Made by a program: the position numbers and the translations under genes | Shown: positions 42,618-63,868 of the stretch, piece by piece | Layout: each line of letters starts with the position of its first letter | How positions within the stretch are numbered: position 1 is the stretch's first letter | The notes under the pieces: model-generated | The model's database searches: none | The model's input: the letters and a program-made list of their open reading frames with translations, nothing else | Told to the model about the DNA's origin: nothing | Assembly: GCF_000242635.2 (NCBI RefSeq) | Contig: NC_017770.1 | Coordinates: 4,600,669 to 4,664,668 of the forward strand | DNA from: Solitalea canadensis DSM 3403 | GTDB lineage: Bacteria > Bacteroidota > Bacteroidia > Sphingobacteriales > Sphingobacteriaceae | Length of the DNA stretch: 64,000 bases | Direction: 5' to 3'

Positions 42618-42655
42618 AACAAAAAGGGACTTTTATATAAAAGTCCCTTTTTGTT
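42618..42655. terminator. Bidirectional terminator between DUF4180 and gltX
   Basis: Perfect 18-bp arms, 42618-42635 and 42638-42655 (AACAAAAAGGGACTTTTA and its complement), with a very small loop. The right arm abuts the gltX stop codon. Confidence 0.9.
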
Positions 42656-44325: not shown

Positions 44326-44349
44326 AATTGCATTAAGCTCAATGCAATT
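44326..44349. promoter_or_regulatory. Operator-like dyad between gltX and the histidine kinase gene
   Basis: AATTGCATT (44326-44334), six bases, then its exact complement AATGCAATT (44341-44349). It is 68 bases upstream of the gltX -7 element and about 140 bases upstream of the kinase start. Which gene it serves is unknown. Confidence 0.45.
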
Positions 44350-51891: not shown

Positions 51892-52890
51892 TCACGCTTT
51901 AACAATCATTTTGCCGGTATTGTTGCCTGAAAATAAGCCCAACAATGCTGCTGGTAATTGATCAAATCCTTCTACGATTGTCTCGGTATACTTTAGTTTT
52001 CCCGTCTTCACCCATTCCGCTAATTGTACTATCCCTTCTTTAAAGCGACTTGCATAATTACCAACAATAAATCCTTGCATCAGCACACTACGGGTTAGTA
52101 AAAAAGGTTGAATACGAGGACCAAGAGCTACCTCAGTATTGTTATACAGCGCAATTTGACCGCAAAGAGGAATTCTTGCATGAAAGTTCAGCTGTTGAAT
52201 AACCGCGTCAGAAATTTCTCCGCCCACATTATCGAAGTAAATATCGACTCCATTGGGAGTAGCATGCGCAATTGCTGCGCTTAGATCAGTTGTTGCTTTG
52301 TAATCAACAACTGCATCAAAACCGAACTCATTTAAGAGCATATTCGTCTTTTCCGGTCCGCCTGCAATGCCTACTACACGGCAACCCTGTATTTTGGCGA
52401 TCTGTCCGACCAAAATTCCTACAGCTCCGGCTGCTCCTGAAACCACCACTGTTTCTCCAGCCTTCGGTTTACCTATGTCCATCAATCCGAAAAAAGCAGT
52501 TAATCCAGGCATCCCCAGAATACCCAGGTAGTAACTTGCAGGAGCTAAGTTGGTATCTATTTTTTTTAAATCTTTAGCCTTGGCAATTATGGTTGTTGAC
52601 CACGGTAGGTAACCTAAAACAACATCTCCTTTGGCAAATTCCGGAGAGGTACTTTGTACTACTTCCGCTACTATCCCTCCATGTATTGGTTGGTCGACTT
52701 CGTATGGTGCAGCGTATGATTTTGCTGCACTCATTCTTCCCCTCATATAAGGGTCAACAGAATAATAAAGGCCTTTTAATAAAACCTCTTCGTTCTGTAA
52801 GTCAGGGAGTGTTATTTCTTCGGTTCGGAATGTCTCTACGGTTGGCATTCCTTTGGGGCGAGCTGCCAAAACGATTTGTCGAGCGTTCAT
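51892..52890 (-). CDS. NADP-dependent MDR reductase (CurA / prostaglandin reductase type)
   Basis: 332 residues, cytoplasmic, zinc-free medium-chain reductase. The N-terminus has the family texts LKGLYYSVDPYMRGRMSAAK and VLGYLPWSTTI; the NADP fold has VVSGAAGAVGILVGQIAKIQG (about 148-168) and DIYFDNVGGEISDAVIQQLN. Such enzymes reduce the C=C bond of enals and enones. It is the fourth gene of the OhrR-DJ1-Ohr operon, 8 bases after ohr, which fits removal of lipid-peroxide breakdown products. Confidence 0.92.
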   Translation of the reverse strand: MNARQIVLAARPKGMPTVETFRTEEITLPDLQNEEVLLKGLYYSVDPYMRGRMSAAKSYAAPYEVDQPIHGGIVAEVVQSTSPEFAKGDVVLGYLPWSTTIIAKAKDLKKIDTNLAPASYYLGILGMPGLTAFFGLMDIGKPKAGETVVVSGAAGAVGILVGQIAKIQGCRVVGIAGGPEKTNMLLNEFGFDAVVDYKATTDLSAAIAHATPNGVDIYFDNVGGEISDAVIQQLNFHARIPLCGQIALYNNTEVALGPRIQPFLLTRSVLMQGFIVGNYASRFKEGIVQLAEWVKTGKLKYTETIVEGFDQLPAALLGLFSGNNTGKMIVKA

Positions 52891-52898
52891 AATTAAGA

Positions 52899-53327
52899 TT
52901 AATTGTTTGAAACGTTTAATTCAACTGTGATATTTCCTCGGGTAGCATTTGAATAAGGGCAAACCTGGTGCGCCTTTTCTACGAGATTTTTTGCAAGCTC
53001 TTCACTTACCCCTGGAACATTTACGTGTAGAATTACGCCTAGGCCATATCCTTCTGCTTCATTTTTACCAATGCTCACATGTGCAGTAACGTTGGTTGGG
53101 CCGGCTATTTCTACTTTCGCCATTCGTATAACAAGACTTAATGCACTATCAAAACAAGCCGCATAGCCTGCAGCAAATAATTGTTCAGGGTTGGTGTACT
53201 CTCCTCCCGAACCACCTAATTCTTTCGGAGTTCTTACCTCAAGGTCGAGCACATTGTCTGATGAGGTTACTTTACCATTTCTTCCGCCGGTTGCAAAGGC
53301 TGTTGCTGTATATAAAGGCTTAATCAT
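52899..53327 (-). CDS. ohr: Organic hydroperoxide resistance protein
   Basis: 142 residues, cytoplasmic. The two reactive cysteines of Ohr are present: Cys58 in AAGYAACFDSALSL and Cys123 in HQVCPYSNATRGN, and the N-terminus KPLYTATAFATGGRNGKV is characteristic (OsmC superfamily, Ohr branch). It reduces organic and fatty-acid hydroperoxides using lipoylated protein thiols. It follows the DJ-1/PfpI gene by 8 bases and is under the OhrR-type promoter at 54476-54507. Confidence 0.96.
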   Translation of the reverse strand: MIKPLYTATAFATGGRNGKVTSSDNVLDLEVRTPKELGGSGGEYTNPEQLFAAGYAACFDSALSLVIRMAKVEIAGPTNVTAHVSIGKNEAEGYGLGVILHVNVPGVSEELAKNLVEKAHQVCPYSNATRGNITVELNVSNN

Positions 53328-53335
53328 GTTTAAAT

Positions 53336-54025
53336 TTATTTGTTGATTGTGTTTAATAATTCTTTAGCGGTAATTTCTGAGGATGCAGGGTTTTGACCTG
53401 TAATTAATAATCCATCTTTGATCATGAAAGGGGCGAAATCTTCCTTTTTTGAATAATTGGCTCCCAGGTTTTTCAACTCAGTTTCAAGTAAAAATGGAAC
53501 TACTTTGGTAAGGCCAACCAGCTCTTCTTCTGTATTGCTGAAGCTGGTAAGGTTTTTACCCTTTACAATTGCATGGCCATCTTTATCCCTGAGAGGAATC
53601 AAACCGGCTACTCCATGACAAACAGAGCCGATTGGTTTTTGAGCGTTATAAAAATCCTCCAGTAATAACCTTAATTCATAGTTGTCTGAAAGGTCCCACA
53701 TTGGCCCATGTCCGCCCGGTAAAAATGCAGCATCAAAATCTTTCGCTTTTACATCTTCAATCTTGACAGACTTGGCAAGTTGTAACAAAGCCTCACGATC
53801 ATTGCTGAATCTTTTTGACATTTCTGTTTCTGAAGAAGCATCTTCGCTCTTTGGATCAAGAGGTACCTGCCCACCTTTTGGAGAAGCGATAGTTATTTCA
53901 GCTCCTGCATCCTTAAAGATGTAATAAGGAGCAGCAAGTTCTTCCAGCCAAACACCTGTTTGGTGGCCAGTATTTCCCAATTCGCTATGGGAGGTTGTGA
54001 TCATTAATACTTTAAGAGAGCCCAT
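53336..54025 (-). CDS. DJ-1/PfpI family protein (Hsp31-like, class I glutamine amidotransferase fold)
   Basis: 229 residues, cytoplasmic. The nucleophile elbow is PIGSVCHGVAGLI with Cys136-His137, and the family texts HQTGVWLEELAAPYYIFKDA and AAFLPGGHGPMWDLSDN are present, which places it in the Hsp31/YhbO-like branch (glyoxalase III or protein-repair type activities). It starts 3 bases after the MarR-type regulator stop, so it is surely in the same operon. Confidence 0.93.
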   Translation of the reverse strand: MGSLKVLMITTSHSELGNTGHQTGVWLEELAAPYYIFKDAGAEITIASPKGGQVPLDPKSEDASSETEMSKRFSNDREALLQLAKSVKIEDVKAKDFDAAFLPGGHGPMWDLSDNYELRLLLEDFYNAQKPIGSVCHGVAGLIPLRDKDGHAIVKGKNLTSFSNTEEELVGLTKVVPFLLETELKNLGANYSKKEDFAPFMIKDGLLITGQNPASSEITAKELLNTINK

Positions 54026-54028
54026 AAT

Positions 54029-54457
54029 TTATACGTCTTTTAGTTTATTTAAGAGTTTGATTATTTGCGAACGTGTAACCACTATATCTTCATCAGAAAG
54101 ACTGAGGCTGCATTGGAGTTTATTCGGAACCTCGACGGCTTTTTCTTGCAATTTTTTTCCATCCGGAGTTAACGAAATAAGTACGATTCGTTCATCTTCA
54201 GCACTTCTTTTTCTTGACACAATTTTCTTTTGTTCTAATCTTTTTAAAAGAGGAGTCAGCGTTCCGGAGTCGAGCATCAGGTGATCCCCTAATTCTTTAA
54301 CAGATAATGTTTGATGTTCCCATAACAAAAGCATGACCAGGTACTGCGGGTAAGTTAAATCCAGTTCATCTAATAATGGTTTATAGTGTGCTGTTACTTT
54401 TCGTGATAACGCATATAGTGGAAAACAAAGCTGGTTTTCTAACTTCAGAAAGTCCAT
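54029..54457 (-). CDS. ohrR: OhrR-type MarR family redox regulator
   Basis: 142 residues from ATG at 54457. The open frame extends to a GTG at 54493, but that codon lies inside the operator palindrome. Cys11 in LENQLCFPLYALSRKVTAHY is at the position of the peroxide-sensing Cys of OhrR, followed by the winged helix: LDLTYPQYLVMLLLWEH, ELGDHLMLDSGTLTPLLKRL and RSAEDERIVLISLTPDGKKL. Such repressors leave DNA when the Cys is oxidised by organic peroxides. Here the gene heads its own target operon, so it is autoregulated by inference. Confidence 0.93.
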   Translation of the reverse strand: MDFLKLENQLCFPLYALSRKVTAHYKPLLDELDLTYPQYLVMLLLWEHQTLSVKELGDHLMLDSGTLTPLLKRLEQKKIVSRKRSAEDERIVLISLTPDGKKLQEKAVEVPNKLQCSLSLSDEDIVVTRSQIIKLLNKLKDV

Positions 54458-54475
54458 AGTTTTAATTTGATGATG

Positions 54476-54507
54476 CAAAATTAAATTGTGCACAATTTAA
54501 TTGCAAA
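54476..54507 (-). promoter_or_regulatory. OhrR operator inside the ohrR operon promoter
   Basis: A perfect 24-bp palindrome at 54479-54502 (half-site AATTAAATTGTG) overlaps the promoter. On the minus strand TTTG (rc 54504-54507) and TAATTTTG (rc 54476-54483) are exact Bacteroidota -33 and -7 elements 20 bases apart. The palindrome fills the spacer and most of the -7. The ATG is 18 bases further. The half-site resembles known OhrR boxes (ACAATT/AATTGT). Confidence 0.85.
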
Positions 54508-54561
54508 TAAAACCTGTCATTAAAATGTAAGTTTTTGTTGATTGAATTGGTTAATAATAGA

Positions 54562-54595
54562 AAAAGCACCCTTGAGTATATTTAAGGGTGCTTTT
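54562..54595. terminator. Terminator of the alcohol dehydrogenase gene
   Basis: AAAAGCACCCTT (54562-54573) and its complement (54584-54595) with a 10-base loop. On the minus strand it follows the stop at 54614 and ends in CTTTTTCTATT. Confidence 0.85.
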
Positions 54596-54613
54596 CAGAA
54601 TATTAAATACTGC

Positions 54614-63070: not shown

Positions 63071-63102
63071 TGTTGTTATTTAAATAACAACAGATATTTT
63101 TG
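63071..63102 (+). promoter_or_regulatory. Perfect palindrome overlapping a promoter before the dioxygenase gene
   Basis: TGTTGTTATTT (63071-63081) is followed directly by its exact complement (63082-63092), a 22-bp palindrome without spacer. TATTTTTG (63095-63102) is an exact Bacteroidota -7, and GTTG (63072-63075), 19 bases earlier, is a one-mismatch -33. The palindrome lies between them, as a repressor operator would. The start codon is 20 bases after the -7. Confidence 0.55.
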
Positions 63103-63121: not shown

Positions 63122-63868
63122 ATGAACTTAGCGCGGTCTAAAAGAGAAATTGCTGAAAATGGCTTTACCATTATTAATGATGTATTTACGCCAGAGGAAG
63201 TTAGTGTTATTCTTCACCTAATTACCTGGGCAGATACCGCTAAAGATACGTTCAGAAAATCGGATGATCTTTTTGCCATCAGGCAGTTTCTAAAAGAAGT
63301 GCCCGATGTAGCGGGTACAATCTTATCGGAGAAACTTAGGATGCTGATTAAAGAATTATTTGGTCCGGAGTATTTCCCTGTAAAATCTATTTATTTCGAT
63401 AAACCGAAGCAATCTAATTGGTTTGTAGCTTATCATCAGGACTTAACCATATCTGTTGAGCATAAAGTGGAAGTTGAAGGTTTTGGCCCCTGGACGGTTA
63501 AGCAAAATCAGTTTGCTGTTCAGCCTCCATTGTCAATTTTGGAAAATATTTTTACCTTTCGAATACATCTGGACGACACCGATGAAGGAAACGGTGCATT
63601 AAAAGTTGTTCCTGGTTCACACGCAAAAGGTATTTACCGCCCTGAAACAATAGATTGGACGGTAGAGAAAGAAGTATTTTGTAATGTGCAAAAAGGTGGT
63701 ATAATGATTATGCGGCCGTTATTATTGCATGCTTCAAACAGAACAACTACTGATCACCAACGCAGGGTAGTGCATATTGAATTTAGCGATAAAAAATTGC
63801 CAGTGCCCCTAAAATGGGCTGAGTTATTGACTAATGATTGTGATAATGAAGTTGCAATCAGCCGTTAA
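63122..63868 (+). CDS. Phytanoyl-CoA dioxygenase (PhyH) family protein
   Basis: 248 residues, cytoplasmic, Fe(II)/2-oxoglutarate type. The iron motif HxD is in WFVAYHQDLTISV (about 99-111), the distal His in MRPLLLHASNRTTTDHQRRV with the 2-oxoglutarate Arg (about 199-218), and FRIHLDDTDEGNGALKVVPG is characteristic. Bacterial members hydroxylate diverse small molecules; no substrate can be inferred. A palindromic operator-like site precedes it. Confidence 0.88.
   Translation: MNLARSKREIAENGFTIINDVFTPEEVSVILHLITWADTAKDTFRKSDDLFAIRQFLKEVPDVAGTILSEKLRMLIKELFGPEYFPVKSIYFDKPKQSNWFVAYHQDLTISVEHKVEVEGFGPWTVKQNQFAVQPPLSILENIFTFRIHLDDTDEGNGALKVVPGSHAKGIYRPETIDWTVEKEVFCNVQKGGIMIMRPLLLHASNRTTTDHQRRVVHIEFSDKKLPVPLKWAELLTNDCDNEVAISR

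Follow-up and report, generated by a model that had tools for sequence, protein, structure and literature searches.

The ohrR locus and its operon

Four minus-strand genes follow one another in the window, the whole stretch of 64,000 nucleotides of Bacteroidota DNA analysed here: the regulator gene ohrR, a DJ-1/PfpI family gene (pfpI), the organic hydroperoxide reductase gene ohr, and a gene for a CurA-like reductase of the MDR family (mdr). The gaps between them are 3, 8, and 8 bases. Before ohrR lie a perfect palindrome, promoter elements of the Bacteroidota type, and a terminator-like hairpin (Table 1).

Table 1. Features of the ohrR locus, in window positions
Feature	Position	Strand	Basis
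ohrR, 142 aa, with Cys11 and Cys116	54029-54457	minus	protein matches and family models
DJ-1/PfpI family gene, 3 bases after ohrR	53336-54025	minus	family models
ohr, organic hydroperoxide reductase, 8 bases after pfpI	52899-53327	minus	TIGR03561, 183 bits, cut-off 88.85
MDR-family gene, 8 bases after ohr	51892-52890	minus	nearest is NADPH-dependent curcumin reductase CurA, with 419 bits slightly below its cut-off of 440
OhrR box, perfect 24-bp palindrome AATTAAATTGTGCACAATTTAATT	54479-54502	.	inverted-repeat search; pattern scans of window and genome
-33 element TTTG	54504-54507	minus	sequence; read 54507-54504
-7 element TAATTTTG	54476-54483	minus	TAnnTTTG; first five bases common to the box
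Predicted transcription start, inferred, 14-nt leader	54471	minus	TAnnTTTG at -12 to -5 (PMC9723704); leader lengths in relatives
Intrinsic-terminator-like hairpin	54551-54606	minus	inverted repeat; fold -19.8 kcal/mol, z -6.0; T run

A linked ohr gene accompanies the regulator. The preliminary description had named ohr as a visible target; the gene is present, its TIGR03561 score above the cut-off, but it stands third in a tight operon of four genes, which the description leaves out. Related loci share parts of this gene set: ohrR-(DoxX-like)-pfpI-ohr in L163 (the intervening frame was read in this locus only, and called DoxX-like by eye), with the same spacing in L164 and L165; ohrR-ohr-pfpI in L166; ohrR-ohr-mdr in L167 and L014; and, in L168, ohrR-ohr-mdr followed by further genes, including an iron-ADH-like one (by eye), and then pfpI. 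From the family names, we infer that the operon may serve in the removal of carbonyls arising from lipid peroxidation.

The operon is accessory and patchy, since few related genomes hold an OhrR at E ≤1e-25: none of 3 congeners, 2 of 33 from the rest of the family, 31 of 395 in a class sample, and 25 of 395 in a phylum sample (the last two samples overlap, and both contain the window's genome).

The regulator

Comparisons drew on 125 OhrR loci: 80 named loci (the best 80 of 570 relatives), L082-L086, of which L082 is the window, and 40 more (L112-L151). L082-L086 are the matches with E below 1e-30 among the 30 loci of a family-level search, the others of which were left unused. By title or kinship, 86 loci were assigned to Bacteroidota and 39 to other phyla. 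L151, a short frame, was omitted from the protein alignment, leaving 124 rows. Some genomes may duplicate others, and three identical pairs occur in the tree.

The best solved relatives of the regulator (P0001) are OhrR of B. subtilis (1z91/1z9c, E 2.8e-47) and of Xanthomonas (2pfb, 2pex). The Pfam model of the MarR winged helix recognizes it (PF01047, 64.9 bits, cut-off 24.6), as does the SarA/Rot model (PF22381, 78.5 bits, cut-off 27), and a structure model (pLDDT 93.5) places helices at residues 53-60 and 64-76. The NCBIfam equivalog NF052638 is the best of 12 families (182.3 bits, the next reaching 55.5) and falls short of its cut-off of 200; its name suggests a Vibrio-based model, and curated cut-offs of this kind regulate naming; they do not describe a trait of the protein. 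In PMC4027180, a DNA-binding comparison with OhrR-ohrA lists Val57, Lys58, Asp67, Ser68, Arg77, Arg86, Glu93, and Arg94; all eight positions carry the identical residue in the window OhrR, numbered four lower.

A gapless alignment over 135 residues, with an offset of 11, sets Cys11 on position 22 and Cys116 on position 127 of Xanthomonas OhrR. Tyrosines neighbouring the reactive cysteine of OhrR have a role, and Tyr15, Tyr25, and Tyr36 accompany Cys11 here. The preliminary description had singled out Cys11 as the sensor, a residue that is indeed present and so aligned, but it overlooked Cys116, which occupies the position of the second redox cysteine of the 2-Cys OhrR subfamily. In the 2-Cys OhrR of X. 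campestris, Cys22 and Cys127 form an intersubunit disulfide (PMC3469484). Cys11 is conserved in all but one of the 85 Bacteroidota rows (84) and in all 39 others; a cysteine at column 116 occurs in 6 of the 85 (window included) and in 19 of the 39.

The regulator might instead be a 1-Cys sensor like B. subtilis OhrR, which pairs with a small thiol in a mixed disulfide, and Cys116 would then be dispensable. The 79 Bacteroidota OhrRs that lack a cysteine at column 116 speak for this, as do the 23 of 85 with none in columns 105-130, and so does C. violaceum, where the first cysteine was critical for sensing and the second seemed to prevent over-oxidation (PMC3469484). The exact, gapless coincidence of Cys116 with XcOhrR Cys127 argues against it, and on balance we find the 1-Cys reading rather doubtful, preferring the 2-Cys assignment.

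The other Bacteroidota proteins show a further pattern. In 49 of 85, a second cysteine stands at column 108 (34) or 109 (15), column 116 being the Xanthomonas position; the disulfide geometry is possibly different in these proteins.

A palindromic OhrR box

As first described, a perfect 24-bp palindrome precedes a Cys-containing gene of the OhrR type. The arms of AATTAAATTGTGCACAATTTAATT, 12 bases each, are 100% complementary with no gap between them, and the palindrome lies 21 bases before the ATG of ohrR on the minus strand. First-order Markov copies of the window yield perfect palindromes of at least 24 bp at a rate of 0.017 per 64 kb (1 event in 60 copies). With up to 3 mismatches allowed, the palindrome is the sole match both in the window (0 in 100 shuffles) and in the genome of 5,202,069 bases (0 for a control pattern). 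Its half-sites, AATT-A-AATT and AATT-T-AATT, carry the core AATT-N-AATT of OhrR sites in other bacteria (PMC3469484), arranged as an inverted repeat at the promoter.

Similar boxes accompany ohrR elsewhere. At up to 6 mismatches, a box is found within 300 bases of ohrR in 32 of the 86 Bacteroidota loci and in 23 of the 39 from other phyla, leaving 54 and 16 ohrR genes, respectively, with none at that distance; within 1600 bases the counts are 62 of 86 and 30 of 39. The scores of boxes within 300 bases were almost never reached in shuffles of those 300 bases, which preserve base composition only (100 per locus, named loci only). The palindrome thus appears to belong to the classical OhrR box class and to be a clear new case of a known type of switch.

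Three palindromes of at least 22 bp occur in the window, of 38, 24, and 22 bp. The 22-bp one, TGTTGTTATTTAAATAACAACA, is perfect, has no second copy within 3 mismatches anywhere in the genome, and is located at 63071-63092, 29 bases before a gene (63122-63868) that by eye resembles the phytanoyl-CoA dioxygenase family; TATTTTTG stands just after it, and the two could form an operator-promoter of similar design for some regulator. The 38-bp one, also perfect, lies at 42618-42655, directly after the end of a gltX-like gene, with runs of A and T, and is probably a two-way terminator.

The preliminary description had proposed the box as a means of finding the regulon. In this genome it leads to no further member: nothing else comes within 3 mismatches of the box, and the regulon may consist of this single operon, although boxes in relatives were counted at up to 6 mismatches, so that a weaker second box may exist. 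With up to 3 mismatches allowed, a relaxed core pattern gave 214 forward matches across the genome, as compared with 153 for its reversed control. Two sites with a single mismatch to this core were set aside. The first, at 44326-44349 of the window, between divergent gltX-like and histidine kinase-like genes (by eye), differs from the box at 7 positions and is a different inverted repeat, AATTGCATT-N6-AATGCAATT. The second, G000:C1:5185939-5185962, has 5 differences from the box, is self-complementary at 16 of 24 positions, and falls inside a long minus-strand open frame; neither site is claimed as a target. Searches for a second OhrR and a second Ohr in the genome gave two weak matches (E 2.2e-8 and 1.4e-4) and one (E 2.2e-4), respectively.

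Promoter elements before ohrR

Bacteroidota promoters carry TTTG near -33 and TAnnTTTG at -7 (PMC7366714), the latter spanning -12 to -5 (PMC9723704). On the minus strand before ohrR, TTTG (54507-54504) is followed by 20 bases (54503-54484) and then by TAATTTTG (54483-54476), the order and spacing of a primary-sigma promoter of this phylum; a spacing of about 20 follows from the -33 and -7 positions. The exact elements 20 bases apart had been recognized from the start. The claim that the palindrome fills the spacer holds in part: it covers 19 of the 20 spacer bases, but also takes the TAATT of the -7 element. A 24-bp palindrome cannot fit inside a 20-base spacer, and so it overlaps five of the eight -7 bases. 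We place the predicted start near 54471, two bases from the earlier estimate of 54469.

The overlap has a cost for the argument. Beyond the box arm, a -7 match requires only TTG and could therefore arise by chance; with its letters partly supplied by the box, the -7 element alone is weak evidence. Of the Markov copies made from the intergenic stretch, 15% contain TAnnTTTG taken alone, and 0.48% contain TTTG-N19..21-TAnnTTTG. Elsewhere in the window, TAnnTTTG lies upstream of 7 of 32 genes in the sense orientation versus 1 of 32 in antisense (frames of at least 180 aa, ohrR not included), a sense bias that fits the Bacteroidota promoter type. A sigma-70 scan found no promoter-like site in the ohrR intergenic stretch. 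The alternative phase, with the TTG of the box as -33, has no TAnnTTTG after the box in the window and was discarded.

The hairpin at 54551-54606 follows an aldehyde-reductase-like gene on the same strand and separates that gene from the ohrR operon, which therefore probably needs a promoter of its own here. A consensus terminator scan missed it, its loop of 10 exceeding the limit of 8.

Two promoter layouts among relatives

Related loci provide a broader view of how box and promoter are combined. Layouts were counted where the best box had at most 6 mismatches, which leaves aside 24 of 86 Bacteroidota and 9 of 39 other loci. Two layouts stand out. TAnnTTTG starts 5 or 6 bases after the box (+5/+6) in 35 of 62 Bacteroidota loci versus 0 of 30 others (p 9e-9), and 5 bases before the box end (-5, the layout of the window) in 10 of 62 versus 1 of 30 (p 0.07); by locus, the -5 excess alone is weak. 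Since many Bacteroidota loci are close kin (Chryseobacterium), loci were also clustered at 70% OhrR identity. By cluster, +5/+6 occurs in 7 of 26 Bacteroidota versus 0 of 16 others (one-sided Fisher p 0.024), and -5 in 10 of 26 versus 1 of 16 (p 0.022).

In the +5/+6 layout, the TTG of the box itself serves as -33, and the spacer is 19 or 20 bases in 34 of 36 cases, partly by construction. Among the ten loci with the -5 layout, four have a TTTG at exactly 20 bases from -7, namely the window, L005 (Chitinophaga), L081 (Apibacter), and L117; of the other Bacteroidota boxes (up to 7 mismatches), 0 of 62 do. This count was made post hoc, and leaving the window out gives 3 of 9. L012 and L116, also among the ten, have a +6 element too. 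The two main layouts are 10-11 bases apart, or about one helical turn.

Leader lengths were compared where the box lies directly before ohrR, taking the nearest in-frame ATG as the start. Box and ATG are 7-24 bases apart (median 20) in the 8 loci that have only the -5 element, and 29-44 (median 32) in the 16 whose -7 comes later (p 1e-4 by Mann-Whitney), whereas the predicted leaders are alike: 11-17 nt in 7 of 8 -5-only loci (0 in L114) and 11-19 nt in all 16 others, with medians of 13 and 14 (p 0.17). This shift of the box with the -7 position, at constant leader, is the best evidence that the -7 elements are real. Neither layout was seen in 8 of the 32 Bacteroidota loci with the box directly before ohrR.

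These data bear on a rival reading, that the palindrome is the OhrR operator and the promoter lies elsewhere, the TTTG and TAATTTTG letters being by-products of the box arm. Four of the ten -5 loci (L013, L034, L084, L114) lack both a TTTG at spacers of 14-27 and a -7 at +5/+6, in keeping with such an arrangement, and the frequency of TAnnTTTG in Markov copies points the same way. Against it stand the absence of any other exact TAnnTTTG on the ohrR strand between the upstream gene and the ATG (54457), the hairpin that sets the upstream gene apart, and the leader comparison. We judge a promoter elsewhere to be unlikely, and the comparison supports a promoter at the predicted place in the window.

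In Chryseobacterium-type loci, some 700 bases separate the OhrR box from ohrR, and the box stands in front of a further gene that is followed by ohrR and ohr, which suggests a three-gene operon. In L012, the only such locus in which it was read, that further gene is nitroreductase-like by eye.

Box core and recognition helix

A second class of OhrR box has the core ATCG-N4-CGAT instead of ATTG-N4-CAAT and was seen in L039, L085, L086, L126, L131, L133-L137, L147, L149, L022, and L062. Among the 124 aligned OhrRs, 79 go with ATTG only, 14 with ATCG only, and 31 with no box by the pattern used. D63 and G65 occur together in 79 of 79 ATTG rows versus 0 of 14 ATCG rows, and none of the other columns among the 142 separates the two classes as well as 63 and 65 when residue make-up is compared. 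Both residues lie where the recognition helix begins (modelled as 64-76), and D63 corresponds to the Asp67 of the DNA-binding comparison (PMC4027180). The 31 rows left out (D63 and G65 in 24, not in 7) have no bearing either way.

This partition suggests that OhrR may read the box directly, and it is confounded by phylogeny. In the OhrR tree (139 columns; 124 rows, 121 of them different), 58 of the 118 inner branches are open, and no supported neighbours group with the window row. Two ATCG rows, L022 (ENG at these columns) and L062 (DSA), fall within the fork that holds nearly all ATTG rows, which suggests separate switches; the other 12 lie outside. Phylogenetic control yields 2 independent pairs when supported branches are used and 4 when all are, too few for significance, and the partition is thus a lead, not a test. 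Tentatively, and with somewhat more doubt than belief, we propose a rule in two parts: the two box positions, about one helical turn apart, would keep the repressor on the same face of the promoter, and D63 with G65 (versus E/Q/N/K63 or N/A65) would set the ATTG-N4-CAAT versus the ATCG-N4-CGAT core.

Proposed mechanism

Gene order, cysteines, box, and promoter letters can be read directly from the DNA, and the OhrR-type identity, operator, promoter, Cys11, and ohr target of the preliminary description are supported by both the sequence and the comparison with relatives. Taking binding, repression, oxidation chemistry, co-transcription, and substrates from homology, we consider it highly likely that the AATTAAATTGTGCACAATTTAATT region is the autoregulated operator-promoter of the ohrR-pfpI-ohr-mdr operon, with OhrR repression lifted by organic peroxide. 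A reduced OhrR dimer on the palindrome would block RNA polymerase, since almost the whole spacer between -33 and -7 lies within the box, as does over half of the -7 element. An organic hydroperoxide would oxidize Cys11, which would form a disulfide with Cys116 of the partner subunit; the DNA would be released and the operon transcribed from about 54471. Ohr would then reduce the hydroperoxide, and the PfpI-family and enone-reductase-like proteins would handle carbonyl by-products.

Activation of its own promoter by OhrR, as reported for ohrR of Streptomyces coelicolor (PMC3469484), is very improbable here, for a dimer bound across the -7 element and spacer should exclude polymerase. Still less credible is an RNA hairpin, a terminator, or the site of another regulator: the palindrome is self-complementary, but it is AT-rich, has no T tail, lies before the predicted start, and has counterparts before ohrR in several phyla.

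Significance

The locus offers a legible redox switch in a phylum whose promoters are unlike the usual sigma-70 type. The switch itself is ordinary and very clear; wider use lies in the pair of promoter layouts and in the helix-box partition. The layouts provide a testable rule for where a promoter of the TTTG/TAnnTTTG kind can accommodate a repressor. Should the partition hold, OhrR operators would become predictable from protein sequence, and both together, if true, would amount to a readable operator code for the whole phylum. The single strong box suggests a one-operon regulon that joins peroxide removal to carbonyl clean-up, and a natural peroxide-inducible promoter could serve as a reporter part in Bacteroidota. 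In a literature search, no title or abstract opening described an OhrR operator in Bacteroidota; subscription papers lay mostly outside this search, so that absence is unproven.

Comparison with known systems

The promoter at the ohrA operator of B. subtilis is of the sigma-A type. The OhrR that binds there (PDB 1Z9C) resembles the window protein at 163 bits over 138 residues, sharing the conserved cysteine and the listed DNA-contact positions, a likeness drawn at the protein level. It differs in being of the 1-Cys type (PMC3469484), whereas the window OhrR has a second cysteine and is paired with Bacteroidota -33 and -7 elements.

The 2-Cys OhrR of X. campestris has its cysteines at equivalent places, and in C. 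violaceum the OhrR footprint overlaps promoter elements (PMC3469484), as the box does here; both differ from the window in promoter class. In C. violaceum, ohrR and ohrA also have transcripts of their own, and the available text makes no mention of pfpI or mdr (PMC3469484). Within the phylum, BmoR of Bacteroides fragilis is likewise a MarR-family regulator of oxidative stress, named among OspR/MgrA homologues (PMC8567585), and is likened here by description only. The +5/+6 loci of Bacteroidota such as Chryseobacterium, Flavobacterium, and Tenacibaculum share the box of the window, but there it covers the TTG of -33 and the spacer, and the -7 element lies 5-6 bases beyond it.
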